Shown here piece by piece: positions 8,229-31,917 of a DNA stretch of 64,000 nt (position 1 is its first letter; every line of letters begins with the position of its first letter). Made by a program: the position numbers and the translations under genes. The stretch spans positions 124,001 through 188,000 of the forward strand of contig JAJECI010000011.1 in assembly GCA_022822065.1 (NCBI GenBank). Direction: 5' to 3'. The DNA is from Candidatus Dadabacteria bacterium (GTDB lineage Bacteria; Desulfobacterota_D; UBA1144; Nemesobacterales; Nemesobacteraceae). Under the pieces are notes generated by a model. That model worked only from the letters and a program-made list of their open reading frames with translations, had not been told where the DNA came from and did not search any database.

Positions 8229-8635
8229 GAGATATAAGGAATAACCCGAATTTCTCTTCAAGGATTGTTCTTTTACAACTGATGTTGCGATCAATATTCC
8301 CTCCGTTGTAACCTCGTTCACAACAGTTCTGTGGAGATCCCAAACCTCATTTTTCGCAAATTAGACTCTGAAAGTATTCAATGCCAGTTATAATAATTAT
8401 GTCATCTTGAGAAACCGTTCTACTGATAAGTTCCATAGAGAGTTAATGGGCGCTGAACAACTTGCTCTATCCGTAAGCAACTAAGAAACTTGAATTATTG
8501 ATATCAAGACACGGTAGAAAGAAGGGTAGTGTAGCAATCTAGGGGAAAAAGGGTCTTTGGATTATTAAGTAGATTTGTGGCTTCCCATATAATAAAACGG
8601 AATTTGCGGTTTGTTTGAAGCAATAAAGAAATGCT
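8229..8635. other. 407-bp AT-rich intergenic stretch
   Basis: Between the OLD-family and methyltransferase genes. I see no convincing open frame, RNA gene or strong hairpin. The last 60 bases presumably contain the promoter for the restriction-modification pair, but no clear -35/-10 pair could be chosen. Confidence 0.6.
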
Positions 8636-10528
8636 ATGAAGGTACTTTCGGAAGAAAGACTCATTAATAAAAGCAAACCCGTATTAAAATGGGCAGGAGG
8701 AAAAACTCAACTACTGCCAGAGTTAACTTCACGCATACCTAATAGTTTCAATAAGTATATTGAGCCTTTTTTCGGTGGAGGTGCTCTTTTCTTTTCACTT
8801 AATCCTGAGAGGGCCGTCTTAGCAGACCTGAATCTGGAACTAGTAAACTTTTATAATGTTCTGGCGAATAGTGTAGATGAACTAATTTCAGAAGTAGCTC
8901 AATATCCGAACGATAAAGAATTTTTCTATGCTATGAGGTCAAAAGACGTAGCTAGCCTTTCTTCAATTGAGCAGGCTGCAAGGACGATTTATCTTAATAA
9001 AACGTGTTTCAATGGTCTCTATCGAGTCAATAAAGCAGACGGTTTTAATGTTCCTTTTGGTTATTATAAAAATCCGGTAATTTGTCGGCCAAACGAACTT
9101 CGAGCGGCATCCATTGCGTTACAAGGAAAGATATTCGTTAATGAAGACTACAAAACCGTTTTATATAAATACGCAGAAGAAGGGGACTTAGTTTTTTTAG
9201 ACCCACCTTATTTACCAATATCTGAATATGCGGATTTTAAACGGTACACAAAAGAACAGTTTTACGAAGAAGATCATCGGGAGTTAGCCGAAGAAGTACA
9301 ACGTTTGCACGAAATTGGCTGTACAGTAATTTTAACGAATTCTAACCATCCGCTAGTACACGATTTGTATAGTAATTTTAATATAGAGATAGTTAGCACC
9401 AAACGGCATATAAATTGTAAAGGTTCCAAAAGGGTAGGCGAAGACGTTATTGTTCTGGCTCTACCAAAAAAACGATTCAATATCCGCTCTCTTCCAGATA
9501 GCCTTGATCCTCAAGTAGCTTTATACCCACCCACTCGCTACATGGGGGCGAAAGGTAAATTGCTTCCTTATATTCAGGACATAGTAAAGCATTTTGAATC
9601 TGAAAGTGTGTTGGATTTGTTTTCTGGCTCAGGCGTTGTTTCATATTTGTTTAAAACACTAGGTAAACGTGTAGTTTCTAATGACTACATGGCCATGAAT
9701 GCCACCATGGCGGTTGCCATGGTTGAGAATAACAAACAAACCTTATCTAGTGTAGAGATAGAAAGTTTGTTTAAACCTTCTAAAGATATTGATACTTTTG
9801 TACAAGATACTTTTCCTGGACTGTATTTCACCGATGAGGAAAACCGATTAATAGATATAGTGCGAGCCAATGCAAAGAAACTACCTAATCCCCATAAGCG
9901 AGCTATCGCCATGTCTGGACTTATTCGAGCTTGCATTAAAAAGAGACCAAGGGGAATTTTTACTTATACCGGCCATCGTTATGATGATGGGAGATCTGAT
10001 CTGAAAACCTCATTAAGGGATCATATTGTTGAGGCGATTCGCCTTATCAACTTGGCAGTTTTTGATAATGGAAAATCTAATAAAGCGCGCCGTGGTGATT
10101 CTATGTCTATCCGCACTAAGCCTGATCTTGTTTATATGGATCCGCCTTACTATACTCCCCATTCAGATAACGAATATGTACGCCGTTATCATTTTGTAGA
10201 AGGATTGGCGTGTGGTTGGAAAGACGTAGAAATGCAGTGGCATACTCAAACTAAAAAATTCAAGAGCTACCCAACTCCGTTTAGTTCTCGGGTAGGGGCA
10301 GAGGACGCTTTCGATAAATTATTTAAGAAATTCAGAGGTAGTATTCTACTGGTTTCTTATTCGTCTAATTCGTTTCCAACACGAGAACAAATAATTTCAC
10401 TCATGGCAAAATATAAACAGCATGTAGAAGTTGTTGATATTGATTACAAGTACAGCTTTGGAAATCAAGGTTACAAAAAAAACGATAACCACAATGAGGT
10501 TAAGGAATATTTATTCGTAGGGTATTAA
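8636..10528 (+). CDS. fused double D12-class N6-adenine DNA methyltransferase
   Basis: A 630-residue fusion of two Dam/D12-class methyltransferases. The first half has KWAGGKT (residues 18-24), EPFFGGGALFF, NKTCFNGLYRVNK and the catalytic DPPY at 189-192. The second has YMGAKGKLLPYI, DLFSGSG (327-333) and a second DPPY at 502-505. M.FokI-type enzymes have the same double organisation: each half methylates adenine on one strand of an asymmetric type IIS site. The endonuclease gene starts five bases after its stop codon, so the two form an operon protecting self DNA and cutting foreign DNA. AT-rich, like the OLD gene. The exact recognition site cannot be read from the sequence. Confidence 0.9.
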   Translation: MKVLSEERLINKSKPVLKWAGGKTQLLPELTSRIPNSFNKYIEPFFGGGALFFSLNPERAVLADLNLELVNFYNVLANSVDELISEVAQYPNDKEFFYAMRSKDVASLSSIEQAARTIYLNKTCFNGLYRVNKADGFNVPFGYYKNPVICRPNELRAASIALQGKIFVNEDYKTVLYKYAEEGDLVFLDPPYLPISEYADFKRYTKEQFYEEDHRELAEEVQRLHEIGCTVILTNSNHPLVHDLYSNFNIEIVSTKRHINCKGSKRVGEDVIVLALPKKRFNIRSLPDSLDPQVALYPPTRYMGAKGKLLPYIQDIVKHFESESVLDLFSGSGVVSYLFKTLGKRVVSNDYMAMNATMAVAMVENNKQTLSSVEIESLFKPSKDIDTFVQDTFPGLYFTDEENRLIDIVRANAKKLPNPHKRAIAMSGLIRACIKKRPRGIFTYTGHRYDDGRSDLKTSLRDHIVEAIRLINLAVFDNGKSNKARRGDSMSIRTKPDLVYMDPPYYTPHSDNEYVRRYHFVEGLACGWKDVEMQWHTQTKKFKSYPTPFSSRVGAEDAFDKLFKKFRGSILLVSYSSNSFPTREQIISLMAKYKQHVEVVDIDYKYSFGNQGYKKNDNHNEVKEYLFVGY

Positions 10529-10533
10529 TGTAA

Positions 10534-12255
10534 ATGGTTTGGCACATAGGAAATACCACCGTACGGACTCCATACCGCTTAAAACAGGCTTTAAAGGTAC
10601 TCGACAAATCTAATTTGATTGGTAACTTGGGTGGACGGTTCCATGGGGGGAGGATTAAAGAACAAGAGTTTGCAGAGCTTCTTCATTACAACGGTGTTGT
10701 ATATGTTCAAAGGATAGCTGAGACACAAGAAAAAGATGTGTCAGATCTTGGACGAAAGTGGCGTGTTGCTCTTTGCCAGCTAGGCTTTATAACACCGGAC
10801 AAAACATTTGATACAAATTTTCCTTCGTTTTCTATTACACCAAATGGTAGACGTCTCATTGAAGCTGAAACGATACCAGGGCAACAAGAGTGTTTTCTTC
10901 GTTCTTTGGCTGTCTATCAATTGCCTAATGGTTTAGAAAAAAAATATAAGTTCAATACATTCTCCCCTTTACGCTTCGTGTTACAGATCATTTTTAAGTT
11001 GTCTACGGTAGGGGAAGACCCATTTATTTCATTTACGGAATTTGCTCTTTTTGTTCAGACCAAGACAGATTCACTTGGAGTTGATCAGGCTATTAGCAAC
11101 ATCGTTGAGTATCGAAAACAGCGGTTAGCAAATAGAGGAAAAATAAAACCCTTTAAAAAGCAACTATTTCGTGATGTTGTAGGTGAGGTATATCCAGATG
11201 CGACAAATCTAGATACAAAGGAAAGGACTCTTCGCGATTATGCCGATTTAACGCTCCGCTACCTTAAAGCTACCGGATTATTTAAGGCAAAAGGTAGAGG
11301 AATAGTTGCTGCTCCAGTAAAACAAAAATTAGCTGAATTTCTGGCTTTTGAAGATTGGAAGTCATTGGAGAAAAAAGAATATTTCTTGACTCTCTGGGAA
11401 GGCGCAAGGTTGCCGACTGATGATCATAACATAGCCTCTAACGTGATAGATGATTTGGTTACTCAAATAAACTCTATGGGAGGACAGGCTAGTGTAAATA
11501 TTGAAGGCTTAGGCGATGCTGACGTGGCTATGGAGAGACATCGTTTAGAAGACCAATTAATTTGTATGGAGGAATTGGAGTTTGCCCACGAACAAGCTGA
11601 AAAAGTACCAGAGATCACTACTTGGTTGGATGCACTTTGTAGTAATAAGCGAGAATCTGAGACCCCCGATGGAGAATTGATTCGTATTCCTAGGGGGGAA
11701 GCACCGGCGTATTTTGAATGGGCGATATGGAGAGTATTTTTAGCAACAAACTCATTGGAGAATCCCCCGTGGAAATCAAGGCGATTTCAAGTTGATCAAG
11801 ATTTTTTTCCCGTCGGAACGGCACCAGGCCGTGGTGCGGATATGATATTTGAGTTTAACGACATAGTGGTTGTTACGGAAGTTACACTTACGTCATCATC
11901 GCGACAAGAAGCAGCAGAAGGAGAGCCAGTTCGTAGGCATGTAGCCGAATGTATGGAAAGATATACAGATACAGGAAAAAGAGTTTATGGATTATTTTTA
12001 GCTCTCAACATTGACAGCAATACTGCACATACGTTTAAACACGGAGACTGGTATTTAAGCGACGATACGAAAATTAATCTATCAATTGTACCAATCTCTT
12101 TAGGAGACTTTAATACTCTACTCAAGAATAAAAGAACCAATTTTGCTGATCTCCCACAAACATTGAAGTCTCTTTTGCTAGAGTGTCGCGCAATATCAAA
12201 TCTCGATGCCCCTCTTTGGAAAGAGGGTATCAGTAGATTAGTGACTACATGTTAA
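10534..12255 (+). CDS. AlwI-family type IIS restriction endonuclease
   Basis: A 573-residue protein. The N-terminus (GNTTVRTPYRLKQALKVL, then GNLGG and EFAELLHYNGVVY) and LGRKWRVALCQLGFITP are typical of the AlwI/PleI/BstNBI family of type IIS enzymes, which bind a short asymmetric site and cut a fixed distance away. The C-terminal half holds the likely catalytic domain: EAPAYFEWAIWRVF, then PVGTAPGRGADMIFEF and VVTEVTLTSSSRQE, compatible with a D...ExT variant of the PD-(D/E)XK core. It follows the double methyltransferase directly, which supplies both strand modifications. Length is in the family's range and the frame is intact, so it is probably active. Confidence 0.85.
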   Translation: MVWHIGNTTVRTPYRLKQALKVLDKSNLIGNLGGRFHGGRIKEQEFAELLHYNGVVYVQRIAETQEKDVSDLGRKWRVALCQLGFITPDKTFDTNFPSFSITPNGRRLIEAETIPGQQECFLRSLAVYQLPNGLEKKYKFNTFSPLRFVLQIIFKLSTVGEDPFISFTEFALFVQTKTDSLGVDQAISNIVEYRKQRLANRGKIKPFKKQLFRDVVGEVYPDATNLDTKERTLRDYADLTLRYLKATGLFKAKGRGIVAAPVKQKLAEFLAFEDWKSLEKKEYFLTLWEGARLPTDDHNIASNVIDDLVTQINSMGGQASVNIEGLGDADVAMERHRLEDQLICMEELEFAHEQAEKVPEITTWLDALCSNKRESETPDGELIRIPRGEAPAYFEWAIWRVFLATNSLENPPWKSRRFQVDQDFFPVGTAPGRGADMIFEFNDIVVVTEVTLTSSSRQEAAEGEPVRRHVAECMERYTDTGKRVYGLFLALNIDSNTAHTFKHGDWYLSDDTKINLSIVPISLGDFNTLLKNKRTNFADLPQTLKSLLLECRAISNLDAPLWKEGISRLVTTC

Positions 12256-12565
12256 TCACTGAAAAAATTGCTTAATAATTGATGAACACAGAAGTGGACC
12301 TCAATGTTAAGACAGTTTTTAGGCTCCACCTCTAACCAGAAAAGAAGGCATCGAGACAGTTCCGCTCCAGTAGTTATATTTTCCTCTCTGTGGTTAAAAT
12401 GGTTTTCCGAATCCGGGCTTCCGCTTCAGATCTAAAGCGCTATCTAACATCAACGCGCTCCGCCCGTTATCTAACTGGATTCATGAAGAAATGCCGCCTC
12501 CCTTTTTATTTTGCGAAAGATTTAAGACGTTATCCATCCAGGCGAAGTGGAACAGGGTTGGTATA
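12256..12565. other. intergenic stretch with repeat and possible IS-end relic
   Basis: No gene seen. It contains the left copy of a diverged repeat (12392-12415) and, at about 12284-12345, sequence reminiscent of an IS3-type terminus (TGAACACAGAAGTGGACC then AAGACAGTTTTTAGG). The latter is weak evidence of an old insertion. The composition changes sharply from AT-rich to about 50% GC across this stretch. Confidence 0.4.
12392..12415. repeat. diverged long repeat, left copy
   Basis: Core GGTTAAAATG-G-TTTTCCGAATCCG matches 21841-21864 with one mismatch; weaker similarity continues for about 15 bases upstream and 30 downstream. It sits just outside the nuclease-STAND gene, while the other copy follows the zincin pseudogene, so the two bracket 9.4 kb. 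Confidence 0.7.
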
Positions 12566-15500
12566 ATGAAAAGAATGCGCGATTCTTCAAAGAATGCGGA
12601 TCCCCATTCTTCCGAAATGTGGGGGAAATCCCGCGCAGGCGCTTGGGCCGCTAGGGGATTTGACTATCAGCACTTGGTTTCCACGCTGATTCTCGTCCGA
12701 CAGTGGGCAGGTCTTGCACCGCTTGGTTATCTTGTTCCCGAAGGTATTGAGGATTGCGTCATCGAATCTCTAGGCCGCAATATCTGGATTCAGATCAAGT
12801 CGCGCAAAAAAGGTGCTTTCAGCAGTTCTGAAATAGGGAAACTTCTGAAAGACCTTGAAGCTAAAGTCTCCTCAATCAAGAACGGAGAAGAATTCCGGAC
12901 CGCCCTTATACTGGAAAAACCGTGTCCAGACATAAGAAAAGCCGGAATTGATCAGCTTTTTGAAGATGATTCACGAAAGGTTTTTGTGTGCCCCGATCCG
13001 TCCCATGAAATCACGAGCCTGCTTTTGAAGCAACTTGGCGCGGCAGAAGTGACCACGGAAGGAATCGCTAGCAATCTCTACAGGTTTGTCGCCGACTCCT
13101 CGGGAAAAAACGCACCTGTGGGTTTTGACGCGAGGATTCGCATATCCACAACTGAAGTCGAACGGCGGATACTCGAACATCTGGAATCCTCAGACCCATC
13201 AGCGATAGACAAGGCGTTTCTCGAAGGCTTCCTGAAACCTGTCGACTTCTTCACTCGAATTGATGAACCGAACTTCTATCAGGGAATAAAAGTAAAACCT
13301 GGTCATGTTGCAGCTGATTTGGTTATAGATCGCCCGGATGACGTGAGCAAAGTCATTTCCGCGCTCACGCGGCAAAGACATACTCTTGTCTCGGGTCCTT
13401 CAGGCGCAGGAAAGTCTGCTTTGTTGTGGCTGTCAGCAGAAACCTTAGCCAAAAATTCAAGACTGTTTCAGATAACAGGGTCGGCGACTGTGGCAGATGC
13501 CGAGGATATAATCAGGTTCGTCCGGGCCCGCAGACCAACAAGCGTTTCGCCAATCGTCCTGATATTTGACGAAGTAGGTTCGACAAACAGTGATTTTTGG
13601 AATGTGCTCGCCTTCAACCTAAGGGAACTGCCGGAAGTATACTTCCTCGGTTCTGTGCGTCATGAGGATGTGAACCTGATCGCTGACAGGGCCGACACAG
13701 GTTTCGTTTCTATAAGTCTTGATGAAAACTTGGCGGCAAGCGTCTGGCAAAAACTGTGTGCCCGAAACCAGACAAACTGGAGTCACTGGCGCGAACCATT
13801 CGAGCAATCAGAGGGTCTGATGCTTGAATACGTCCACTTGCTAACGCGCGGAAAGCATCTGGATGATGTTATCGGCGAGCAGGTTCGCCAAAGGGAAACC
13901 CAGGACCGAAACGATGAACTCGCCATTATAAGAAGCACATCCGTGCTCTGTGCACGCGGCGGCGAAGTCAAGGCGAAAAAGTTGTTTGAATTGCTGGGGC
14001 TGGAACCGGATGCTGCGAACCGTTCGCTAAGAAGACTCATCGACGAGCATCTTGTCCGCGAGGACCGCCCGGGCGTGCTTGGAGGGCTCCATACGCTCCG
14101 CTCAAACGCATTGCGCAAAGCTTCTCATGATGAGACCGTCTTTTTGATCGAGGACACTCTTTGGCGAAGCCTTGCGGCGACTACCAAGGAGACGTTGCCA
14201 AGGCTAATACAATCCCTTATTGCGGATCTGGAAAAACAAGAAGAGGATCATGTGCTCCTGAAACTGGCCGAGATGCTCGGCCAAAGTCATGAAATCGATT
14301 TGTGGACAGCGGTTCTGACCGGGTTGGGCCTCGCGACGCTTGAACGCTCCGCCGTTTCATTCATCTCCATACTTGAACAGTGCGGACTGCATCGTCACTT
14401 CTGGCGTGTGGCATCAATGTTTGCGATTCTTCCCGACTCCGACATTATCGAACTATCGAATCCCTCACAGTCCAAGAAATTGCGAGATTCCGTCTCGGCC
14501 TTTCAGGCATCATCAGTAAATGACCTGCGATCCGCCTGCTTGAAAAAACTTCCCAAAGAAAACAAACCTCCAAGCTGTTGCTCTATTGAGCAGGCAAACG
14601 AACTCCTTTCCTGCTTGGTGCCGATATTCGGAAGCAAACCCGTAGAAATACCTCTTGAAATGGATTTCACCAAAAATGATGATCTGGACATAAATCAGAT
14701 AGCGATCTTTTTGTCCACTGCCTATCTAATCAGCCTCGACTTGGCGAAGAACTTCGTAAAAAACTTGGGAGGCGAGCAGTTTCTGTTTGATCTTTTTCAT
14801 TCCCAGACCCCCTGGGTCACCGCCCCGGCAGTGAAATCCAACGGCACCCATGGCCGCACGGTGCGCTCGGACCTGCTCTACTTAGGAGAAAAGCATCAGA
14901 CTGATCCCCACAGTACCATTGTAAGCATCTGTGAAACCCTGATCGCCCTGTCTCCAAAATCGACTGCCGTGGCCTGCGATGCCGTCTGGCCGACGAGGGA
15001 AACCGTTTCCATCGGCGAGTTCAGGCCTTGGTCAAAAAATATTCCCAGACAAAACCTTCCGCCGGAAACCCGCGTCGCGTGGAACGTCGCATTTTCACAA
15101 ATATTGGAATCCCGATTCTCAACGACAAACATGCTAACCAGCTACACGCTGCAGATGAATTCACTTGTCGAGAGAACGGAAAAAGTTTTTCGTTCCTATA
15201 CGGAGAAGTGGATAAAGAAGAAATACATCTCCGACGCAACGGCATACTCACTGGCTGGAGAAATAAACGAAATTGCGGATGCCGTCGCCGAACTGGGGCC
15301 CCGGCCTAAACCAACGGCTTCGCCATACTCAATGACGGAACCGGCCGAAATTTCCGAAACTGACGATATTGGCGATTTGTTGATATCAACACTTACCAAC
15401 CTTCTGTTCCGACTTAATAAAAGAGAAAGCGTCGGAGCCACCGCTACCTTCGCCGGAGGTCTCGCGGTACAAGCCCGAGACCATTCCGATTCTGACATGT

Positions 15501-16468
15501 GGCGTACAATGCCAACTCCGAACACCAAACTGGCCGTCTTGTCAAACCGTCTTGACGACGTTGCGTGCGTTCTGCATGAAATGGCCCGTTACGGCGGCAG
15601 ACCAAGCAGAATTCCAGGAATCATGAAACCGGTACGGAAAGCTTATTCCGGAAAAGCGGTTAGCGCGGCCGCCAAGCACTGCCGTTCTCTTGCTGACCGG
15701 CGTTTCCGCAAGAAATTGCTTGCTGTTGAGAAAGCGTTCAAAGAGAAAGGCTGGACCGCCCGTTGCGTAGAGCGAACTCTCGAACAGGGCGACTCCCATT
15801 ACTGGCCCGCGCGGGACATTGCGATTCTTGTCACAGTACCGGATTTGGAAACGGGAATAGCACTCTATTACGAGCAATGCCCCATGATCGCAAAGCAGTC
15901 CCTCGGGGACGATTGGCCATTCAGAACGGTACCCGTCGTTAACGATTTGCTTCTGCCATACTTGGCATTGAATATGACATCGACCGGACCGATGCCGGAT
16001 GCGGACTTTTTTCATAACTGGTCAGACCGTATCGACTGTCCTTCCCTGGAATCGGAAATCTTGGAAAGATTCGGCAAAGCCTCAGAAGCCTGTATCATCA
16101 TGTCAGGGATAATCGCGTGTTGTAGTCCGAATAACGTGCACCCAAAGGAAGCTGAGGCGTTCTCGCAGGCGGAGAAAACCTTTGAACGTAATTATGATTT
16201 TATTGTCGAAGCAGTTGAGCGCACAGGTTCGGAAAACCTGGAACTCGCGCAGCAATACCTTTGTCAAAGTCGTTTAAGGGTTGGCAAGGAACTTGAAGAC
16301 ACAAACTCCGGCAACGCAGTTGACAATCCCTTGTATAGAACTGCGTATCTATCACCGGACAGCAAAGAAAATGAAGACGCCTTTCAACTTACCTATGTGC
16401 ACCTGACAATTCTGCAAGACGAGTTATCGCAACGAAGGGAGGTTAAAGCAAAGAAAAAAGCGAAATGA
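12566..16468 (+). CDS. Cap4-like nuclease-STAND ATPase, Avs-like architecture
   Basis: About 1,300 residues from the preferred start at 12566 (AGGG 11 bases upstream); the frame can extend to 12491. The N-terminus matches the Cap4/DUF4297 dsDNA-nuclease pattern: RAGAWAARGFDYQHLVS, a central E-D (EDCVIES, residues 62-63) and IQIKSRKK (Gln76, Lys78), the PD-(D/E)XK core. A P-loop NTPase follows: Walker A GPSGAGKS (277-284), Walker B VLIFDEVGS, then a winged-helix-like segment. The remaining 700 residues are helical with no clear motif and probably form a sensor. Avs/AVAST anti-phage sensors share this nuclease-STAND-sensor order, though they are usually longer. The AlbA-type gene 55 bases downstream may be a partner. 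Moderate GC differs from the AT-rich flanks. Confidence 0.7.
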   Translation: MKRMRDSSKNADPHSSEMWGKSRAGAWAARGFDYQHLVSTLILVRQWAGLAPLGYLVPEGIEDCVIESLGRNIWIQIKSRKKGAFSSSEIGKLLKDLEAKVSSIKNGEEFRTALILEKPCPDIRKAGIDQLFEDDSRKVFVCPDPSHEITSLLLKQLGAAEVTTEGIASNLYRFVADSSGKNAPVGFDARIRISTTEVERRILEHLESSDPSAIDKAFLEGFLKPVDFFTRIDEPNFYQGIKVKPGHVAADLVIDRPDDVSKVISALTRQRHTLVSGPSGAGKSALLWLSAETLAKNSRLFQITGSATVADAEDIIRFVRARRPTSVSPIVLIFDEVGSTNSDFWNVLAFNLRELPEVYFLGSVRHEDVNLIADRADTGFVSISLDENLAASVWQKLCARNQTNWSHWREPFEQSEGLMLEYVHLLTRGKHLDDVIGEQVRQRETQDRNDELAIIRSTSVLCARGGEVKAKKLFELLGLEPDAANRSLRRLIDEHLVREDRPGVLGGLHTLRSNALRKASHDETVFLIEDTLWRSLAATTKETLPRLIQSLIADLEKQEEDHVLLKLAEMLGQSHEIDLWTAVLTGLGLATLERSAVSFISILEQCGLHRHFWRVASMFAILPDSDIIELSNPSQSKKLRDSVSAFQASSVNDLRSACLKKLPKENKPPSCCSIEQANELLSCLVPIFGSKPVEIPLEMDFTKNDDLDINQIAIFLSTAYLISLDLAKNFVKNLGGEQFLFDLFHSQTPWVTAPAVKSNGTHGRTVRSDLLYLGEKHQTDPHSTIVSICETLIALSPKSTAVACDAVWPTRETVSIGEFRPWSKNIPRQNLPPETRVAWNVAFSQILESRFSTTNMLTSYTLQMNSLVERTEKVFRSYTEKWIKKKYISDATAYSLAGEINEIADAVAELGPRPKPTASPYSMTEPAEISETDDIGDLLISTLTNLLFRLNKRESVGATATFAGGLAVQARDHSDSDMWRTMPTPNTKLAVLSNRLDDVACVLHEMARYGGRPSRIPGIMKPVRKAYSGKAVSAAAKHCRSLADRRFRKKLLAVEKAFKEKGWTARCVERTLEQGDSHYWPARDIAILVTVPDLETGIALYYEQCPMIAKQSLGDDWPFRTVPVVNDLLLPYLALNMTSTGPMPDADFFHNWSDRIDCPSLESEILERFGKASEACIIMSGIIACCSPNNVHPKEAEAFSQAEKTFERNYDFIVEAVERTGSENLELAQQYLCQSRLRVGKELEDTNSGNAVDNPLYRTAYLSPDSKENEDAFQLTYVHLTILQDELSQRREVKAKKKAK

Positions 16469-16523
16469 AAAAATTCTGGGTAGGATAAATGACCTAAGAC
16501 CCTGACACGGATGAGGGATAATT

Positions 16524-17699
16524 ATGATTACAAGGAAATGGGTTGATCATGGATTATCTGAAATGCTTCCGACTTTACGCGATACGGGGGAGGGACAGCA
16601 TGTCGAATTCATGTCCGAATACCCCGAGAACGGGTACGAACTCAGCAAGGAAATAGCAGCTTTTGCATCTTCCAACCACGGGACAATTCTTATAGGGGTA
16701 TCTGACGACGGCGAATTGCTTGGCTTGCCCGACTTAGACAGCAATGCAGCACGCGACAAACTGCTACGCCGCATTGAAGGCGTATGTTCAGGCAACATCC
16801 GTCCTTCCATTACTCCCATTGTGAAGTTCGCACAGGAGAATGACGCTATCGTTCTTACGATCGAGGTGCCACGCGGAACCCAGCCGATTTACTACAGCAA
16901 ACACACACCATACATTAGGCATCTCAGCAGCTCGCGTCCGGCCGAACCACATGAGGTTATTGATCGCATCGCTGAATATCTAGCTGCGACTCCGGTTGAA
17001 CCCGCCGAAGATAACCTAAAGAGTAACTTCCTCTCATCCATCGCCGAAGTCTTGGTCACCACTCTTATGCTTGCGGATCAAGTGGAATTACGTAACATCA
17101 ACCCATGGCGTGGATACATACTTTCTGAAGCCAGCTACTTAGCGACTCAGTTTCGAGAATCTGCCACCGAAGAAATCGCAATAGAGATGAAACTGGATAG
17201 TACGCTAAAAAATATCGCTGACCATCTCGACAGAGCTGCATCCCATATGCATACAATGGGAGAAAACTCCTGGGTGACTTATATCGGTCATTGGGTTGCT
17301 GCGCGAGACTGTGCGCAGGAAGCAATGGAGAAACACGTTGACCCAGTCCCCCTATCGGCTAGGTCACGGGAGCAGATACACGACATTATACACAAGGCCA
17401 CGCGGCAACTCGTTGATCTAGATAATCGTGCCAAGGAAATGGCTCATGATGGCCGCATGGAGGAACTTCAGGATGATGCCAGTCGTATCGGGTCATTGCT
17501 GTTGAAGCTAACCTATTACCGTATTGATGACATCAGCCCTAGTCTTGCCTTAAAGCTGCGTCCACTGGCAAATGATCTGAATCTCATAGAAACGGAGCGC
17601 ATTTATCTGGACGGAGGCAAGTCTGTAGAACGCATTCTGGGTAAAATTGACGACCTCAGCAAAGGTATTCAGTTCTTGGTTTCTGAAGAAGGCATTTGA
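16524..17699 (+). CDS. AlbA/Schlafen-type putative DNA-binding protein
   Basis: A 391-residue protein. Residues about 20-150 carry the AlbA_2 (Schlafen core) pattern: GEGQHVEFMSE, ELSKEIAAFASSNHGTILIGV, DDGELLGL, then IRPSITPIV and IEVPRGTQPIYYS with YIRHLSSSRPA. Such domains bind nucleic acid or nucleotides and occur in transcription regulators and in several defence systems. The C-terminal 240 residues are helical and unrecognised. It follows the nuclease-STAND gene by 55 bases on the same strand, suggesting co-transcription, and ends before a strong hairpin. It may be a regulator or an effector partner of the STAND protein; neither is proven. Confidence 0.7.
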   Translation: MITRKWVDHGLSEMLPTLRDTGEGQHVEFMSEYPENGYELSKEIAAFASSNHGTILIGVSDDGELLGLPDLDSNAARDKLLRRIEGVCSGNIRPSITPIVKFAQENDAIVLTIEVPRGTQPIYYSKHTPYIRHLSSSRPAEPHEVIDRIAEYLAATPVEPAEDNLKSNFLSSIAEVLVTTLMLADQVELRNINPWRGYILSEASYLATQFRESATEEIAIEMKLDSTLKNIADHLDRAASHMHTMGENSWVTYIGHWVAARDCAQEAMEKHVDPVPLSARSREQIHDIIHKATRQLVDLDNRAKEMAHDGRMEELQDDASRIGSLLLKLTYYRIDDISPSLALKLRPLANDLNLIETERIYLDGGKSVERILGKIDDLSKGIQFLVSEEGI

Positions 17700-17779
17700 C
17701 CCCTACATTAACTATTCAGTCCGTCGCGGGAATACCCAGCGATAATAAGTCTAGACTTTTGACAATTCTTTGGGCGCCG

Positions 17780-17815
17780 GGAGAAGCTTAGGGGAATACA
17801 CCCCTAAGCTTCTTC
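17780..17815 (+). terminator. strong perfect hairpin after the AlbA-type gene
   Basis: GAAGCTTAGGGG (17783-17794) pairs exactly with CCCCTAAGCTTC (17801-17812) across a six-base loop, extendable outward by a few pairs. It ends the nuclease-STAND/AlbA unit, but no T-run follows, so it may be an RNA-stabilising or processing structure rather than an intrinsic terminator. Confidence 0.55.
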
Positions 17816-17943
17816 GTTGGGCCCACATGAAATCCCATCTCGTTAATCAGTCCTCTACATATTTCTCGTGAGTCTTATAGCCTTGCCTTTTCTCTCTCCC
17901 GCTTAGCTTCGCCTGTGATTTTCTTATATTGTCTCAGAAACCA

Positions 17944-18177
17944 TTAGTGGTGTTTCTCTACAAATGCGCCGAACTTCATGACTCCAAAAACAACAGCAAA
18001 GACCATTAGAGCTTTTTCCAAGTTTCCTGAAGCAATCAGGTTTTTTGTTTCTTGCATAAAATTCTCAACAAATTCCATGCTCTTCTCCTGTGTTACAATG
18101 ACAGGTGTGGACATAAGACCCACTATCGCACTTACTAGTCTTATGTGTTCCTTGCACCATCTCAATGCAGATTTCAT
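17944..18177 (-). CDS. small membrane protein, 77 aa
   Basis: Not recognised. AGGGGAT lies seven bases before the ATG, so translation is likely. Two hydrophobic segments (about residues 13-29, LVSAIVGLMSTPVIV, and 56-72, ALMVFAVVFGVMKFGAF) flank a polar, helical middle (EFVENFMQETKNLIASG). It is transcribed away from the TIR-STAND gene, sharing its upstream region. Small two-helix membrane proteins beside sensor NTPases are sometimes effectors or inhibitors in defence loci, but nothing here demonstrates that role. Confidence 0.55.
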   Translation of the reverse strand: MKSALRWCKEHIRLVSAIVGLMSTPVIVTQEKSMEFVENFMQETKNLIASGNLEKALMVFAVVFGVMKFGAFVEKHH

Positions 18178-18252
18178 AATTATCCCCTAAATTTGGTTAG
18201 GAAATAGTTTGCTCTATGTTTTGGTCGGAGGAGAGGGACGGGGATGAAAATC

Positions 18253-18276
18253 TGTCAATTTTCCTTAATAGTTCCC
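18253..18276. promoter_or_regulatory. leader element shared with the OLD gene
   Basis: Begins TGTCAATTTTCCTTAATA and matches 6227-6250 at 20 of 24 positions. It overlaps the left arm of the hairpin at 18261-18300 and lies about 105 bases before the TIR-STAND start. Confidence 0.4.
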
Positions 18277-18300
18277 GAACATTAGCGGGAACTTAAGGAA
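18261..18300 (+). promoter_or_regulatory. long inverted repeat upstream of TIR-STAND gene
   Basis: TTCCTTAA-TA-GTTCCCG (18261-18277) is complementary to GCGGGAACTTAAGGAA (18285-18300): about 15 paired bases with a two-base bulge and a short loop. No T-run follows. Located 80 bases before the start codon, between two divergent genes, it could be an operator or a structured leader. Confidence 0.55.
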
Positions 18301-18316
18301 TCTGTGTAAAATTGTA
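18299..18316 (+). repeat. 18-bp upstream element, copy 1
   Basis: AATCTGTGTAAAATTGTA; 17 of 18 bases match 20983-21000. It contains a TAAAAT -10-like hexamer (18307-18312) and is followed by TATAAT at 18317-18322, so it may be part of the promoter of the TIR-STAND gene. Confidence 0.5.
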
Positions 18317-18381
18317 TATAATTCCCAAACAATTAAACACGTGATATCGGCCGTTTTCGGAGAAATCTAGGAGAGAAATAA

Positions 18382-20949
18382 ATGGGCATTAAGTTGTTTA
18401 TTAGCTACAGTAGCAGAGATAAAGCTTATAGAGAGAGTTTAAAAGGACACCTTTCGTCAATGGAGCGTACCAACGAAATAGAAACATGGTCGGATGGGGA
18501 AATATTGCCGGGGGCAGAATGGGACCAAGAGATAAGAAATAATCTTGAGTCCGCCGATATTATAGTTCTTTTGATTAGTTCCGATTTTATTGCATCGGAC
18601 TACTGCTCCAGTGTTGAGGTTGAATTAGCGATGGAAAAGCACGAAAGAGGAGATTGCATCGTGTTACCCGTGATAGTCCGTGTCTGTGATTGGCAGAATG
18701 GACTTCCCTTCAGCAAGTTGCAAGCACTTCCTGAAGGAGCTAATCCTATAAAGAAATGGGATGATCGAGATGAAGCTTGGGATAGCGTGGTTACAGGTGT
18801 AAAGGATGCGGTTGAAAGCTTGAAAGCTAAGAAATCCGTGCAACCTTTTCAGGAGAAAGATACTAATTCAAAACTTCGGGAAGATTTCAAAGATTGGCTT
18901 GAAGATACAGAAATTCAGTTGTCACATCGTCACGTAGATAAGATATTGTTGAGTGACATCTATGTTTCGCCTCATTTGAAATCGCTGGATGAGGAAAGTG
19001 AGGATCTAGCCAAACAGATTGACATAGATGGGGCGTTAGCGCATTCCGAAAACCTCGTTGTTTTTGGTGATGAGCAATCTGGAAAAACCTCTCTAGCTAA
19101 ACACCTTTTCGGGTTGTTCCTGAAAGCCGAATATATGCCAGTTCTTGTAGATGGAAAAGATATTAAATCATCTGATATAAAGGAGGCGTTTCGCAGGGCT
19201 GTTGCTAATCAGTACGAAGGTGTTGATATTTCGGCTTCAGAACAGGCACCAAACAAGGTGCTTATCTTGGATAATTTTTCCGAAATCAAGCTAAACAAGA
19301 GGTATAGGAATATATTTGTATCAAACTCCAGAAACTTTTTTGATAGATGCATTTTTATATTGCTTGACTCATTCCGGTACTTGGTACCGGAAATTCATGA
19401 ATTGGACAAATTCAGACGCTTTGAAATTCTCCCGTTAGGGCATCTGAAAAGGTCAGAAATTGTGGAGCGTTGGGTATCACTGGGTGTCGAAGAGCAGATA
19501 GAGGAAAGCGAGTTATATAGTAAAGTCGATGAATTGAAACTGCGGCTAGATTCCTTGGTTAGAGGAAATGTGATTCCCCCGAAACCTGTATACATCTTAG
19601 CGATTATGCAAATATTTGAGGCGTACACTCCGCAGAATTTAGAACTGACTTCCTATGGTCATTGCTATCAGTACTTGGTCTACCAAGCGTTTGAAAAAGC
19701 TAAAATTAAGGCCACTGAGATAGATAAATACTTAAATGTTTTGAACGAGTTGGCTTGGGCCGTTTATAAAAACGGGTCGGGATTGACGGACGAAGACCTA
19801 GGTAGATTCTTCAGAGATTACGGGAAGACCTATTCATTAAAACCGCCGGAAAGAACATCGATCGTAGACAAACTTAAGAGTTGTGGTTTGTTGCGTACAC
19901 GAAACAACGTGCTTTCCTTTAGGTATCCCTATATTTACTACTTTTTTATAGCGAGGAAGATTGCTGAATCATTCAGCACTGATGATAAAGCCAGAGCAGA
20001 AGCTAAAAACGAAATTAAGGTTTTACTTAGTCAACTGCACAGGAAAAACAACGCAAACATTATCATCTTCGTTTCTCATCACATAAAAGACAAATGGATT
20101 CTCGACGAAATTCAACTATGTCTCATGGAGGTCTTTAGCGACCAAGAAGAAGCGACTTTATCTTCAAATTCTTTATCGTTCATGGAGGATTTTATTGCAG
20201 GTATACCTGATTTGGTTTTAGAACACAGAGAAGTGAGCAAAGAGCGTCAAGAAAGAGACGAGACTATAGATGAAGTTGAAAAAATTGATGCAGACGATGA
20301 TGAACCTGATTTAGAATCCTCAGATATTTTCGTTAGGATCAACAAGATTTTTAAAGGAATGGAGATCATAGGCCAGATTTTGCGTAACAGGCACGCTTCT
20401 ATACATAAGGACCTTCTATTTCAAATGGTTAAGTCTGCTACGGATTCCGGTCTACGTTTTCTGCAGTATTTCATTGAGATATCAGATGTGTCTCGTGATG
20501 AAGTTATAAAAACTATTGAGGACGTATTAAAAGAAGACCCGAATACTCAAGTTCAAGATTTGGAAAAAGAAGCTAGAGATACATTTTTGTTTATGATGTA
20601 TGGGGTTATTTTTGGTGTGCTGATAAAAATATCTGCTTCAATTGGCTCAAAAGAGGCAGATGAAATTTATGATCAACTGGAAGGGAACACACCGACTCCT
20701 GCAATCCAGCTTATCAATCAGGCGATTACCCTTCAGTTTAAGAAGCAACTCGACTTCAAGAAATTGAGGGAGCTAGTCGGGGAATTCAGATCCAATCCGA
20801 TATGCAGAAGAATATTAAAAGAAATTGTGGTGCAGCATGTATACATGTTTCCGGTTGACTATAAAGATAAACAAAGATTATCAGCGACACTGGGACTTCC
20901 AGTGCAAACGCAAAGGTTAATGGATAGGCAGGAGAAAACAAAAATTTGA
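18382..20949 (+). CDS. TIR-STAND NTPase (NLR-like defence protein)
   Basis: An 855-residue protein with an N-terminal TIR domain: KLFISYSSRD at the start, WSDGEILPGAEWDQEI, then DYCSSVEVELAME, where Glu79 fits the catalytic glutamate of NAD-cleaving bacterial TIRs. Next is a P-loop NTPase: Walker A GDEQSGKT (229-236), Walker B-like VLILDNFSEI and a FILLDSFRYL sensor strand. The C-terminal 450 residues are helical with no repeat I can name. Known TIR-STAND proteins sense phage and then deplete NAD. The gene is AT-rich, has its own leader with an inverted repeat, and shares an 18-bp upstream element with the next gene. TIR plus NTPase is clear; the anti-phage role is inferred from family and context. 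Confidence 0.85.
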   Translation: MGIKLFISYSSRDKAYRESLKGHLSSMERTNEIETWSDGEILPGAEWDQEIRNNLESADIIVLLISSDFIASDYCSSVEVELAMEKHERGDCIVLPVIVRVCDWQNGLPFSKLQALPEGANPIKKWDDRDEAWDSVVTGVKDAVESLKAKKSVQPFQEKDTNSKLREDFKDWLEDTEIQLSHRHVDKILLSDIYVSPHLKSLDEESEDLAKQIDIDGALAHSENLVVFGDEQSGKTSLAKHLFGLFLKAEYMPVLVDGKDIKSSDIKEAFRRAVANQYEGVDISASEQAPNKVLILDNFSEIKLNKRYRNIFVSNSRNFFDRCIFILLDSFRYLVPEIHELDKFRRFEILPLGHLKRSEIVERWVSLGVEEQIEESELYSKVDELKLRLDSLVRGNVIPPKPVYILAIMQIFEAYTPQNLELTSYGHCYQYLVYQAFEKAKIKATEIDKYLNVLNELAWAVYKNGSGLTDEDLGRFFRDYGKTYSLKPPERTSIVDKLKSCGLLRTRNNVLSFRYPYIYYFFIARKIAESFSTDDKARAEAKNEIKVLLSQLHRKNNANIIIFVSHHIKDKWILDEIQLCLMEVFSDQEEATLSSNSLSFMEDFIAGIPDLVLEHREVSKERQERDETIDEVEKIDADDDEPDLESSDIFVRINKIFKGMEIIGQILRNRHASIHKDLLFQMVKSATDSGLRFLQYFIEISDVSRDEVIKTIEDVLKEDPNTQVQDLEKEARDTFLFMMYGVIFGVLIKISASIGSKEADEIYDQLEGNTPTPAIQLINQAITLQFKKQLDFKKLRELVGEFRSNPICRRILKEIVVQHVYMFPVDYKDKQRLSATLGLPVQTQRLMDRQEKTKI

Positions 20950-27497: not shown

Positions 27498-27773
27498 TCA
27501 TGAAAGCTTTGAGAAGGCCGATGCGTATTCGATGTGCGTTCCCTCGAAACCTTTCCCTGCGAGAGCCAATCCCATCAGGTATGGTCCGGCATATCGGCAT
27601 TACATGCCACCCACGGTCTCTTGGTTGAATCCAAAACGCTGGTAATAGGGCGGATCGCCAAGTACTACGACCGCTGTCCAGCCATCACCCCTTGCCCGTT
27701 CAATTCCGGCCTCGATTAGTTTAGCGGCAATCCCCCGGCGGCGTCTGTTTTCCGTAACTGCGACCGGACCTAT
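27498..27773 (-). pseudogene. decayed GNAT N-acetyltransferase gene
   Basis: On the minus strand one frame reads IGPVAVTENRRRRGIAAKLI, then a helix and AVVVLGDPPYYQRFGF before a stop near 27605. Another frame then continues as PYLMGLALAGKGFEGTHIEY and ASAF, stopping at 27498. Together these match the C-terminal half of GNAT acetyltransferases of the YhbS type: acetyl-CoA loop RRRRGIA, then VLGDPxYYxRFGF, then LMxLxL. The N-terminal half is missing and a frameshift separates the remaining pieces. The break at 27773 coincides with the A/G-rich tract before the autotransporter gene. Confidence 0.75.
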
Positions 27774-27785
27774 AAAAAAAGCTTG

Positions 27786-27803
27786 AAAAAAAAGGGGGGG
27801 GGG
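27786..27803 (+). repeat. A8G10 homopolymer tract
   Basis: Eight A residues (27786-27793) run directly into ten G residues (27794-27803), about 70 bases before the start of the autotransporter-like gene. G-tracts of this length are prone to slipped-strand mispairing and are classic phase-variation switches when placed in promoters. Confidence 0.85.
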
Positions 27804-27875
27804 TAAGGTAAGAAGTAGAGGTTATGGAGTGTTAAGAGTTTGTTACGAATTAAAGTTCAAGGAGGGGGGCTGGCA

Positions 27876-30800
27876 ATGAAAACGGGAGAGTTTCTGGATG
27901 GTTCCAATCTGACTAAGCATATTACTGGGGGAAGGGGGCAAGGCCGGGGAGTTTCCCGCGGCTTCGCAGCGGTGCTTCTGTTCCTGCTGCTGGCCGGTCT
28001 GACGCCCGTGGCCGCCGCGCAGACGTCGGTGCCGCCCGACTGGCCGCTCAAGCCCTCGGGGCTGGAGGTTGGCGACCAGTTCCGGCTGCTGTTCATCACC
28101 TCGACCACGCGCGACGGGACCTCGATGGACATCGCCGACTACAACAGCCATGTGCAGTCTGCTGCCGCCGCCGGCCACACGGCCATCCGTGAGTTCAGCT
28201 CGCAGTTCCGCGTGGTCGGCTCGACCGCCACGGTGGACGCGCGCGACAACACCATGACCACCGGCACGGGCGTGAAGATCTACTGGCTGAACGGCGCCAA
28301 GGTCGCCGACAACTATTCGGACTTCTACGACGGGGGCTGGGACAGCTACGCCTGGAAGAACGAGAATGGAGGGACCGCCGCAGGTGCCGTTCTTACGGGC
28401 AGTAACAACGACGGCACCAAGCACGTTAGCTATCCTCTTGGTAGCCCATCAGGGTTAACAGAGCGGGGGTCCAGCGGCACGGGATCACCTTTCTCCGACA
28501 GCATTACCTTTAATACCAGTGTAGACTCCTTCTACGCCCTCTCTCCCGTTTTCGAGGTAAGTGTCCCCAAGCTCTGCGGCAAGCCCACCCCGGTCCCGAC
28601 GCACTACCCGGATGGCAGGCTCATCCCCGATCATGTCATTAGCGAGATCGCGGCCAGGATTATGAACGCGACCACGTTCGAGTTCTCGGAAAGGAGCTTC
28701 AGCGCCGCGGGCGGAGGCAGCGCCACGATCACGGTCGTGCGGACCGGCACCGGCATCGCGTCGGTGAACTACGAGACCGGGGACGGCTCGCTGAAGGCGG
28801 CGTCCGGCGGCTACGTCCCGACCTCGGGCACCCTGCGCTTCGGGGCGACCGAGAAGTCGAAGAGCTTCACCGTTCCGGTCGCCAACTCGTCGGGCACCTT
28901 CCGGGTGTACCTGTCGAACGCGACCAATGGAGGGGACGCCTGCCAATACGCCACGAAGCACTGGCCTGGCAGTCCCGTGCCTGGCGGCAGCGTCGTGCAG
29001 GTGAACCCCACGACGCCCCCCGGAATACCCGTCATCGAGGCGGAGCAGAAGTTCTATGACGTCGGGGAAGGCGACGGCACGGTCACCGTCTGGATCCGCA
29101 AGTTCGGCAAGGGCCGCGCCACGGTGGACTATGGGGCCTTTGCGAGCGGCACGGCTTCGCTTTCGGACTTCACCTCCACTTCCGGCACCCTGACCTTCCC
29201 GGCGGGGGAGGACTTCTCGCGGCAGAGCATCACGGTGACGATCACCGACGACGAGGTGCAGGAGAGCGACGAGGTCTTCGTTGTAAGCCTGAGCAACGCG
29301 AGCGGAGAAGTACGCTCCGGCAACCCGGGCGGAGAAGCGACGATAAGTCCACTATTAAGTGCTCCTCTCGTAACCATCAAGGACGACGACCAGCCCTCTC
29401 CCCCTCCCGTGATCGTGATCGGGTTCAAGCGCCCCGCCCAGACCGTTTACGAGGGCGACGACGCCGTCTTCACCTTCACGGCGAGCCCGGTCCCGTATGC
29501 GGCCCTTCCGGTGGCTGTGACGGTCGCCACGGACGGCGACTGGGGCGTGACGGCGGGGAGCCGCACGGTGACGTTCGGTGCGGGCGCGTCCACGGCGACG
29601 CTGACGCTTGCGACCACGGACGACCAGGCCGACGAGGCGGACGGCTCGGTGACAGCGACGGTCGGGAGCGGGACCGGCTACACGGTCGGGACCGCGTCCT
29701 CTGCGAGCGTCGCGGTCTCCGACAACGACGATGCGCCGGTGAACAACCTGCCCGCGCTCTCTGTGGACGACGCGACGAAGGCGGAGGGCGGCCTGCCGGT
29801 GATGGAGTTCACTGTGCGGCTGTCGCCGCCTTCACAGGAACTGGTACGGGTGCATGTCTCGACCGAGCCCTCGGAGCCGCTATCGGCGGAACCGAAGGTC
29901 GACTACATGCCGGGCACGTACGACCTGACGTTCCGTCCGGGCGATACGGAGAGGCAGGTGTACATCTGGATTCACGACGACAGTCACGACGAGGACCCGG
30001 AGACCTTCCGGGTGGTGCTGTCGAAGGCGCAGGGAGCAGTGATCGGGGACGGGGTTGCGGTGGGGACGATCACTAACGACGACCCGATGCCTGCGGCGTG
30101 GCTTGCGCGGTTCGGGCGCACGGTTGCGGAGCAGGCGCTTGACGGGGTCTCAGACCGCATGGCGGCTGTGCGCACGCCGGGGATGCGGGGCGCGATTGCG
30201 GGGCAGGCTCTCAGCTTCGATGCGCCCGCCGACGGAAGCGGCGGACCGTACGGCGACGTGAGCGACGGCTTATGCACGGAACGGCAGCCGCAATACCTGA
30301 CGGCGCGCGACGTACTGGTGGGTTCGAGTTTCCTGCTGACTGGGGCGGAGGACGATTCGGGGGGCAGCATGGCCTTCTGGGGCCGGGCTGCGCACGGCAG
30401 TTTCGACGGAAGGGAGGGGACGTTCTCTCTTGACGGGGATGCCACGACGGGGATGCTGGGGACGGACTACGCGAGGGGCAGGTGGCTGGTGGGTCTAGCG
30501 CTTGTGCGGAGCGAGGGCGGTGGAGACTACAGGGACACGGGAACCGGTCCGCAGAGCTGTCCTGAGGGCGTGGGAGCGGAGCTTTGCGACGGGGCGGTGC
30601 GCGCGGGCGACGGCAGTGTGGACGCGTCGCTTATGGCGGCGGTTCCCTATGCTGCGTTTGAGGTCTCCGAGCGTGTGAAGCTCTGGGGAGCCGGGGGCTA
30701 CGGAACCGGGGATGTGACGCTTAAGACGGAAATGGGCGGCAGCTACAGCGCCGACACGAGCTGGAGCATGGCGGCGGCGGGGCTGAGGGGCGGTCTTCTT

Positions 30801-31538
30801 GCTCCCCCTGTTGAGGGTTCCGGTCCCGCCCTGGCGGTGACGTCGGATGTGCTGTGGACTCGGAGTTCCTCTGAGAGGACGCGGCAGCTTGCCGCATCGG
30901 ACTCCGACGTGACCCGGCTCAGGCTCGGGCTCGAAGGCAGTTACCGCCTTGCCATGGAAGGCGAGGGGTCTCTCACGCCGAAGCTTGAGCTTGGCGGGCG
31001 TCATGACGGGGGCGACGCCGAGGGTGGCTTCGGAATCGAGCTTGGCGGCGGGTTTGTGTGGAGTGACCCGGGGTTCGGGCTGTCGCTTGACGTCTCGGGG
31101 CGCACGCTGCTGGCGCATGGGGACGAGGATCTGAAGGACCGGGGATTTGCGGCTGCGCTGGTCTTCGATCCGGACCCGGCGACTAAGCGGGGTCTTTCGC
31201 TCGGTCTGCGCCAGGAGTTCGGCGGACAGGCGCAAGGCGGGCTCGACGCGCTGTTTGCGCCCGCGACGCTGGATGAGCGCACGGGCGGCGAAGGCGCGTC
31301 CCGCTGGGGCATGGAGGCGGCATACGGGTTCCCGGCCTTGGGCGAGCGTTTCACCGGCAGTCCGCATGTCGGTCTGGGGCTAACGGAGGCAGCGCGGGAC
31401 TACAGCGCCGGCTGGCGGCTGACGCCGGAGTCGGAGACCGCGCCCAACCTCTCCTTCGGTCTCAAGGCGACCCGCAGGGAGAGCGACGTTGCCGAACCCG
31501 AGCACACGTTCGGGTTCGAGATCACCTCCGGGTGGTGA
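27876..31538 (+). CDS. autotransporter-like Calx-beta surface protein
   Basis: About 1,220 residues. ATG 27876 is chosen because AAGGAGGGGG lies just upstream. A long signal-like N-terminus (hydrophobic AAVLLFLLLAGLTPVAAA near residue 40-55) leads into a domain typical of marine symbiont surface proteins (GLEVGDQFRLLFITS). At least three Calx-beta modules follow (for example ADEADGSVTATVGSG and DDSHDEDPETFRVVLS). A linker (ARFGRTVAEQALDGVSDRM, about residue 740) precedes a roughly 400-residue beta-barrel with alternating Gly and aromatic strands, ending ...TFGFEITSGW with a terminal aromatic. It probably exposes its Calx-beta passenger on the outer membrane. Calx-beta repeats bind calcium. 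GC and codon use are higher than in neighbouring genes. Confidence 0.8.
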   Translation: MKTGEFLDGSNLTKHITGGRGQGRGVSRGFAAVLLFLLLAGLTPVAAAQTSVPPDWPLKPSGLEVGDQFRLLFITSTTRDGTSMDIADYNSHVQSAAAAGHTAIREFSSQFRVVGSTATVDARDNTMTTGTGVKIYWLNGAKVADNYSDFYDGGWDSYAWKNENGGTAAGAVLTGSNNDGTKHVSYPLGSPSGLTERGSSGTGSPFSDSITFNTSVDSFYALSPVFEVSVPKLCGKPTPVPTHYPDGRLIPDHVISEIAARIMNATTFEFSERSFSAAGGGSATITVVRTGTGIASVNYETGDGSLKAASGGYVPTSGTLRFGATEKSKSFTVPVANSSGTFRVYLSNATNGGDACQYATKHWPGSPVPGGSVVQVNPTTPPGIPVIEAEQKFYDVGEGDGTVTVWIRKFGKGRATVDYGAFASGTASLSDFTSTSGTLTFPAGEDFSRQSITVTITDDEVQESDEVFVVSLSNASGEVRSGNPGGEATISPLLSAPLVTIKDDDQPSPPPVIVIGFKRPAQTVYEGDDAVFTFTASPVPYAALPVAVTVATDGDWGVTAGSRTVTFGAGASTATLTLATTDDQADEADGSVTATVGSGTGYTVGTASSASVAVSDNDDAPVNNLPALSVDDATKAEGGLPVMEFTVRLSPPSQELVRVHVSTEPSEPLSAEPKVDYMPGTYDLTFRPGDTERQVYIWIHDDSHDEDPETFRVVLSKAQGAVIGDGVAVGTITNDDPMPAAWLARFGRTVAEQALDGVSDRMAAVRTPGMRGAIAGQALSFDAPADGSGGPYGDVSDGLCTERQPQYLTARDVLVGSSFLLTGAEDDSGGSMAFWGRAAHGSFDGREGTFSLDGDATTGMLGTDYARGRWLVGLALVRSEGGGDYRDTGTGPQSCPEGVGAELCDGAVRAGDGSVDASLMAAVPYAAFEVSERVKLWGAGGYGTGDVTLKTEMGGSYSADTSWSMAAAGLRGGLLAPPVEGSGPALAVTSDVLWTRSSSERTRQLAASDSDVTRLRLGLEGSYRLAMEGEGSLTPKLELGGRHDGGDAEGGFGIELGGGFVWSDPGFGLSLDVSGRTLLAHGDEDLKDRGFAAALVFDPDPATKRGLSLGLRQEFGGQAQGGLDALFAPATLDERTGGEGASRWGMEAAYGFPALGERFTGSPHVGLGLTEAARDYSAGWRLTPESETAPNLSFGLKATRRESDVAEPEHTFGFEITSGW

Positions 31539-31545
31539 AGCACTG

Positions 31546-31680
31546 ACCGCGGCACGCCGACTGGTCTTGCATGAGGATGGAGGGTTTGAGACAGGGGGAG
31601 TGTCTGCGTCGTTAGAGTGGGAGATGGACATGAGGAGAGGGAGGAGATTGAGCACGGAGCAGGTCTCAGGATTGATATGA
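31546..31680 (+). pseudogene. remnant of an autotransporter barrel
   Basis: Directly after the autotransporter stop codon another frame reads ARRLVLHEDGGFETGGVSAS followed by LEWEMD and a stop. This resembles the barrel stretch of the upstream gene around SGRTLLAHGDEDLKDRGFAA and LVFDPDP. It looks like one strand pair left from a second autotransporter gene after deletion. Short, so the similarity could be coincidental. Confidence 0.4.
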
Positions 31681-31917
31681 CGTGGCAGGGGCTCTCTGTT
31701 TATTCAGTAAAACAACAGTAATCAGCCTTGAAGGGACTTCCTGTCTGCTGGTTTACAAGGAGCGGTGATTCTGGAGGGGCGGTGCCGAGTCCGAATCGGG
31801 TGATTCAAGCTTACAGGATGCCGGATTGCCGTATGATGCCGCGGCGGCCACGGCCCCGTCACGGAAACCGAAACCCCTAAAAAACTGATAAGCGCAACCG
31901 CCTCCCATTAGTTCTTA

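Follow-up and report, generated by a model that had tools for sequence, protein, structure and literature searches.

Within the 64,000-nucleotide stretch of DNA that we analysed (hereafter the window), a long homopolymeric tract precedes a large gene for a surface protein. The gene occupies positions 27876-31538 of the forward strand and codes for a protein of 1220 amino acids that includes a signal peptide, an N-terminal domain of unknown function, three Calx-beta domains, and a C-terminal outer-membrane beta barrel. The tract begins with eight A nucleotides (27786-27793) and continues directly into ten G nucleotides (27794-27803), exactly as a preliminary description of this DNA had stated, and it is embedded in the sequence TATAAAAAAAGCTTGAAAAAAAAGGGGGGGGGGTAAGGTAAGAAG. 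That description placed the tract approximately 70 bases before the start codon, and the distance between the G10 run and the ATG at 27876 is indeed 72 bp.

Several additional features on the forward strand surround the tract. A -35-like box, TTGAAA (27783-27788), is overlapped by the A8 run as read from the sequence, and a -10-like hexamer, TAAGGT (27804-27809), adjoins the last G nucleotide. The resulting layout is TTGAAA-A5G10-TAAGGT with a 15-bp spacer. An A-rich element, TATAAAAAAAGC (27771-27782), is located 5' of the -35-like box, and a Shine-Dalgarno-like sequence, AGGAGGGGGG (27860-27869), forms a strong ribosome-binding site that ends 6 nucleotides before the ATG. Of the two boxes, the -10-like hexamer is clearly imperfect, agreeing with TATAAT at only three of six positions. 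A consensus scan reported no standard sigma-70 promoter at the locus, because its permitted spacers of 16-18 bp leave out the 15-bp arrangement, and no RNA element at the locus was matched in Rfam. Stop codons close the frame of the gene between the tract and the ATG, so the G10 tract is untranslated, and switching of the surface gene by frame-shifting within its coding region is excluded. Further downstream, in the 5' coding region, the sequence GGGGGAAGGGGG at 27925-27945 might represent an interrupted former coding tract, and sister genes carry poly-G tracts at the matching place.

The preliminary description of the gene product as a large, autotransporter-like surface protein is borne out by its domain composition. 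The signal peptide is hydrophobic and lies behind a long basic N-region. AlphaFold2 models the C-terminal part as an 18-strand barrel with moderate confidence (pLDDT 65), and a Foldseek search with this barrel returned TonB-dependent receptors and porins as the top PDB matches, and, after them, autotransporter domains from BrkA and Hbp. The homologous barrel of a sister species (L032) passes the Pfam cut-off for Autotransporter, whereas the protein encoded here does not. An assignment as an outer-membrane surface protein with an autotransporter-like barrel, as modelled, is safe, and this is a weaker statement than membership in type V secretion in the strict sense. The genus contains no ortholog of the whole gene, only partial homologues. 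The N-terminal domain has a relative with 58% identity in sister species G009, where a G8 tract is present in the 5' coding region, and the best relatives of the barrel come from metagenome-assembled genomes (MAGs) labelled Defluviicoccus (74%) and Thiotrichales (56%). A sponge association of the genus is suggested only by the way in which the MAGs containing relatives of the protein are named. Contingency loci usually target surface and restriction genes (compare PMC5084427), and the 1220-amino-acid protein belongs to the first of these groups.

The G10 run stands out strongly against the rest of this genome, which comprises 1.63 Mb in 12 contigs. There are 55 G/C runs of at least 7 nucleotides, and only 7 of these reach at least 8. 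Counted by length, the whole genome has 48 runs of 7, none of 8, none of 9, two of 10, and five of 11. Runs of length 6 were counted in the window (24) and extrapolated to about 600 per genome, and if the background kept dropping as it does from length 6 to length 7, only about 0.03 runs would be expected at length 10. The tract is therefore beyond chance. It is an uninterrupted run longer than 8 nucleotides and above genome background. Loss of mismatch repair as the cause of the tracts is excluded, as mutS and mutL are both present and code for intact MutS and MutL proteins.

Poly-G tails from two-colour sequencing chemistry or a miscalled homopolymer might in principle have created such a run during sequencing or assembly. 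Several of the tracts in sister genomes are indeed located at contig ends, and a 51-G run at L158 2475, close to another tract, is probably an assembly artefact. However, the G10 run is flanked on either side by natural sequence within a contig of 288 kb. None of the seven tracts in this genome is at a contig end; they occur in both orientations and are found mostly at meaningful places. An artefact at this position is therefore highly improbable.

The other six tracts in this genome illustrate what such places can be. One G11 tract (L009 4581-4591; G000:C3:93580-93590) lies in the middle of hsdS, whose type I system is complete and also includes hsdM and hsdR. The hsdS gene is a classic phase-variable target. 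The tract is in frame as assembled, and the specificity or function of the encoded protein may be phase-variable through it. Three related secreted proteins (L010, L013, and L014, on contigs C3 and C10 of G000) each have a C11 tract in or adjoining their 5' coding region, immediately ahead of the signal peptide; at L013 the nearest ATG, as judged by eye, seems not to be in frame with the tract length that was assembled. A G10 tract (L011 4722-4731) is found 44 bp 5' of a gene for a SodC-like lipoprotein and is of the promoter or leader type. The remaining tract, a C11 run at L012 5403-5413, begins 31 bp after the fabF stop codon and has no evident target gene. Elsewhere in the window, positions 6297-20949 hold a probable defence island that includes an OLD/AriA-like ATPase, a type II methyltransferase with a restriction enzyme, and a DS8/PDC-S60-type protein that contains a TIR domain.

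Long tracts are widespread in the genus. All 13 other genomes contain between 4 and 30 G/C runs of at least 9 nucleotides each. About 120 of these places were read and classified, a good part of them without assignment, and many are located early in a coding region, ahead of a signal peptide, or else before genes for secreted proteins or lipoproteins, or with DNA methylase-like genes. The methylase-like genes with poly-G/C tracts in or before them (L083, L094, and L130, all from sister species) were recognized by sequence motifs only.

Comparisons between related loci reveal differences in tract length. Orthologous tracts elsewhere in the genus differ by one or two G nucleotides, as exemplified by L014 and L059 (G11 and G9), L087 and L095 (G9 and G10), and L116 and L158 (G10 and G11, at 95.6% identity). 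Similarly, L151 and L168, which form an orthologous or paralogous pair, have lengths of 10 and 9, and the paralogous tracts L088 and L089 have lengths of 10 and 11. Therefore, the tracts change between species, which does not by itself prove switching within a population. No relative carries the surface gene at the same place, and so the G10 tract belongs to a locus that has no ortholog.

The position of the tract between two promoter-like boxes recurs in the genus, and this comparison supports the earlier proposal that tract length alters promoter spacing. We searched all 14 genomes of the genus for the composite pattern TTGA(C/A)A-N2-7-G6-N0-6-TARRRT and used the reversed reading as a control. 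The pattern has eight matches, including the locus described here, and none in the control. In all eight, the -10-like hexamer directly follows the last G nucleotide. Seven matches carry G9 or G10 tracts, six of them with a 15-bp spacer (this locus among them) and one with a 13-bp spacer, and the eighth has a G6 tract with a 12-bp spacer. The matching promoters are thus assembled with spacers of 12-15 bp, and none has 17 bp. Four other matches (L063, L112, L131, and L145) precede genes for lipoproteins or secreted proteins, with the Shine-Dalgarno sequence 54-68 bp downstream, compared with a distance of 72 bp at this locus. The box that reads TTGAAA here corresponds in register to TTGACA in five promoters of sister species, and the place of TAAGGT is taken by TAGAAT or TAGAGT in sister species. 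Both boxes at the locus are weaker than their TTGACA and TAGA(A/G)T counterparts in the same genus.

Further counts point in the same direction. TTGACA is found no more than 14 bp upstream of the tract for nine G runs versus one C run. A TANNNT sequence directly follows 7 of the 12 runs that are preceded by TTGA(C/A)A versus 6 of the 116 others (Fisher p=1.1e-5, a value that serves as a guide only because related, non-independent loci are counted separately). There is also a raw excess of TAGA after G runs (20 versus 1), which we do not use alone because 5' coding tracts, when read on the opposite strand, account for part of it. A second group of promoters has a different arrangement, wherein TTGAC runs straight into the G nucleotides and a looser -10 sequence lies downstream. 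Two paralogues from one genome, L088 and L089, carry TTGAC-C10 and TTGAC-C11 behind a AAAAAAGC leader, and the AAAAAAGC-TTGA leader of these poly-C promoter tracts resembles the element before the -35-like box at our locus.

A tract that varies in length could also affect expression by means other than the spacing of these boxes. Transcription might begin upstream, for example from the TATAAA sequence at 27771-27776, and place the tract within the 5' UTR. Alternatively, changes in tract length might affect how a regulator binds close to the promoter, as in the opc-like cases that have been described (PMC7864442). The weakness of the downstream -10-like box is compatible with either proposal. 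However, TATAAA lacks a good -35 sequence at 16-18 bp, and unrelated gene contexts share the register TTGA(C/A)A-tract-TAGA(A/G)T, which argues against mechanisms that leave spacing out of account. We therefore regard such mechanisms as unlikely, albeit the most plausible of the alternatives considered here.

The gene behind the tract looks foreign. Homology to sister species G005 ends at position 27770, and a 4.1-kb segment of the forward strand (27771-31903), which opens with the A-rich element, is without counterpart in that species, where 473 bp are present instead. These 473 bp include the 5' half of a GNAT acetyltransferase gene that is intact there, and in G005 the dihydrolipoyl dehydrogenase gene, the GNAT gene, and the following genes are contiguous. 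In the window, only a truncated GNAT remnant is found on the reverse strand (27498-27770), with its 5' end lost and one internal stop. The coding sequence for the surface protein has 67% GC and a GC3 of 82%, compared with 51% GC for the window and a GC3 of 62% for the dihydrolipoyl dehydrogenase gene beside it. By its GC content, then, the surface gene appears to have been acquired horizontally. The putative switch promoter, which lies at the left edge of the replaced segment, is AT-rich (41% GC). In one reading, the switch promoter is native and became fused to a foreign gene; alternatively, a different member of the genus might have supplied the gene and promoter together.

This arrangement raises the question of whether the tract might be a fixed or degenerate homopolymer that insertion of the foreign gene left at the junction, with no role in switching. 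The G10 run lies about 24 bp inside the left breakpoint, which fits such a remnant. The explanation is nonetheless quite improbable, considering that the length of the run is far above genome background and that both the promoter-like register and the association with surface genes recur across the genus. Moreover, no G/C run of at least 8 nucleotides was found beside the relatives of the protein outside the genus, among which few loci include the 5' end of the gene.

Taken together, the tract and its position support the slipped-strand contingency-locus design that had been proposed from the sequence, and the tract very probably acts as a slippage-prone on/off switch. We favor a model in which the G10 run forms the variable part of the spacer between the -35 and -10 boxes of the surface-protein promoter, resulting in phase variation like that of porA, and we assign this model a probability of about 0.77. 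At the sequence level the tract does lie between the two boxes, with a weak -10-like box. According to this model, slippage of DNA polymerase at the G10 run would add or remove single G nucleotides and thereby move the spacer from the assembled 15 bp to 14, 16, or 17 bp. The population would then consist of cells with weak, medium, or strong transcription of the surface protein, provided that the promoter is active as predicted. Under sigma-70 rules, expression should peak near 17 bp, corresponding to G12, and because this optimum would need two more G nucleotides, the assembled G10 form might represent a low or off state. However, the optimum in this organism may differ, given that the assembled spacers in the genus are all 12-15 bp. 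The benefit to the cell could be bet-hedging against phage, a host, or a grazer.

Most contingency loci known so far come from host-adapted pathogens, and poly-G on/off switches of this kind are best known from Neisseria and Treponema. The mechanism is known in kind, and what is new is its setting and scale in an uncultured genus. A search of one literature collection for phase variation in sponge symbionts, Dadabacteria, or uncultured marine symbionts found no papers. The repertoire of promoter spacers, 5' coding tracts, hsdS, and DNA methylases suggests surface and restriction bet-hedging in an uncultured, possibly sponge-associated genus, with heterogeneity from cell to cell as the predicted consequence. 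The locus also suggests a route by which surface genes of foreign origin can come under the control of a native switch. Tentatively, and with more doubt than confidence, we propose that a reusable poly-G promoter module is shared throughout this uncultured genus with small genomes and serves as its common switch, and that surface genes gained by horizontal transfer are domesticated by placement behind the module, with the foreign gene described here as a caught example.

Among known systems, the closest parallels are two promoters of outer-membrane protein genes. In porA of Neisseria meningitidis, a poly-G tract is located in the spacer between the -35 and -10 boxes, and one-base changes alter transcription (PMC3899988); tracts of at least 8 nucleotides are mostly variable in this species (PMC5084427). 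The tp0126 promoter of Treponema pallidum likewise has a poly-G spacer, and the optimum for both porA and tp0126 is 17 bp (PMC7864442). At the level of sequence, the locus described here shares with porA the poly-G tract within the putative spacer of an outer-membrane protein gene, and differs in that the organism and protein are unrelated, an A run precedes the G nucleotides, and the assembled spacer is 15 bp. It shares the same placement of poly-G between the two boxes with tp0126, which codes for an OmpW homologue rather than a Calx-beta/barrel protein. The opc and tprL promoters also carry homopolymeric tracts at surface-protein genes, but in these the -35 or -10 region is itself covered by the tract, and spacing is left unchanged; for opc, regulator binding near the promoter has been proposed as the tract-dependent step (PMC7864442). 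Here, the tract would form part of the spacer. Finally, four promoters from the same genus (G007:C1:636986, G001:C21:8426, G008:C29:18303, and G004:C42:3559) share the layout TTGACA-(A/T)6-G9-TAGA(A/G)T, with a gene for a secreted protein or lipoprotein 54-68 bp downstream. Relative to these, the boxes at the locus are weaker, and the gene is larger and apparently foreign.
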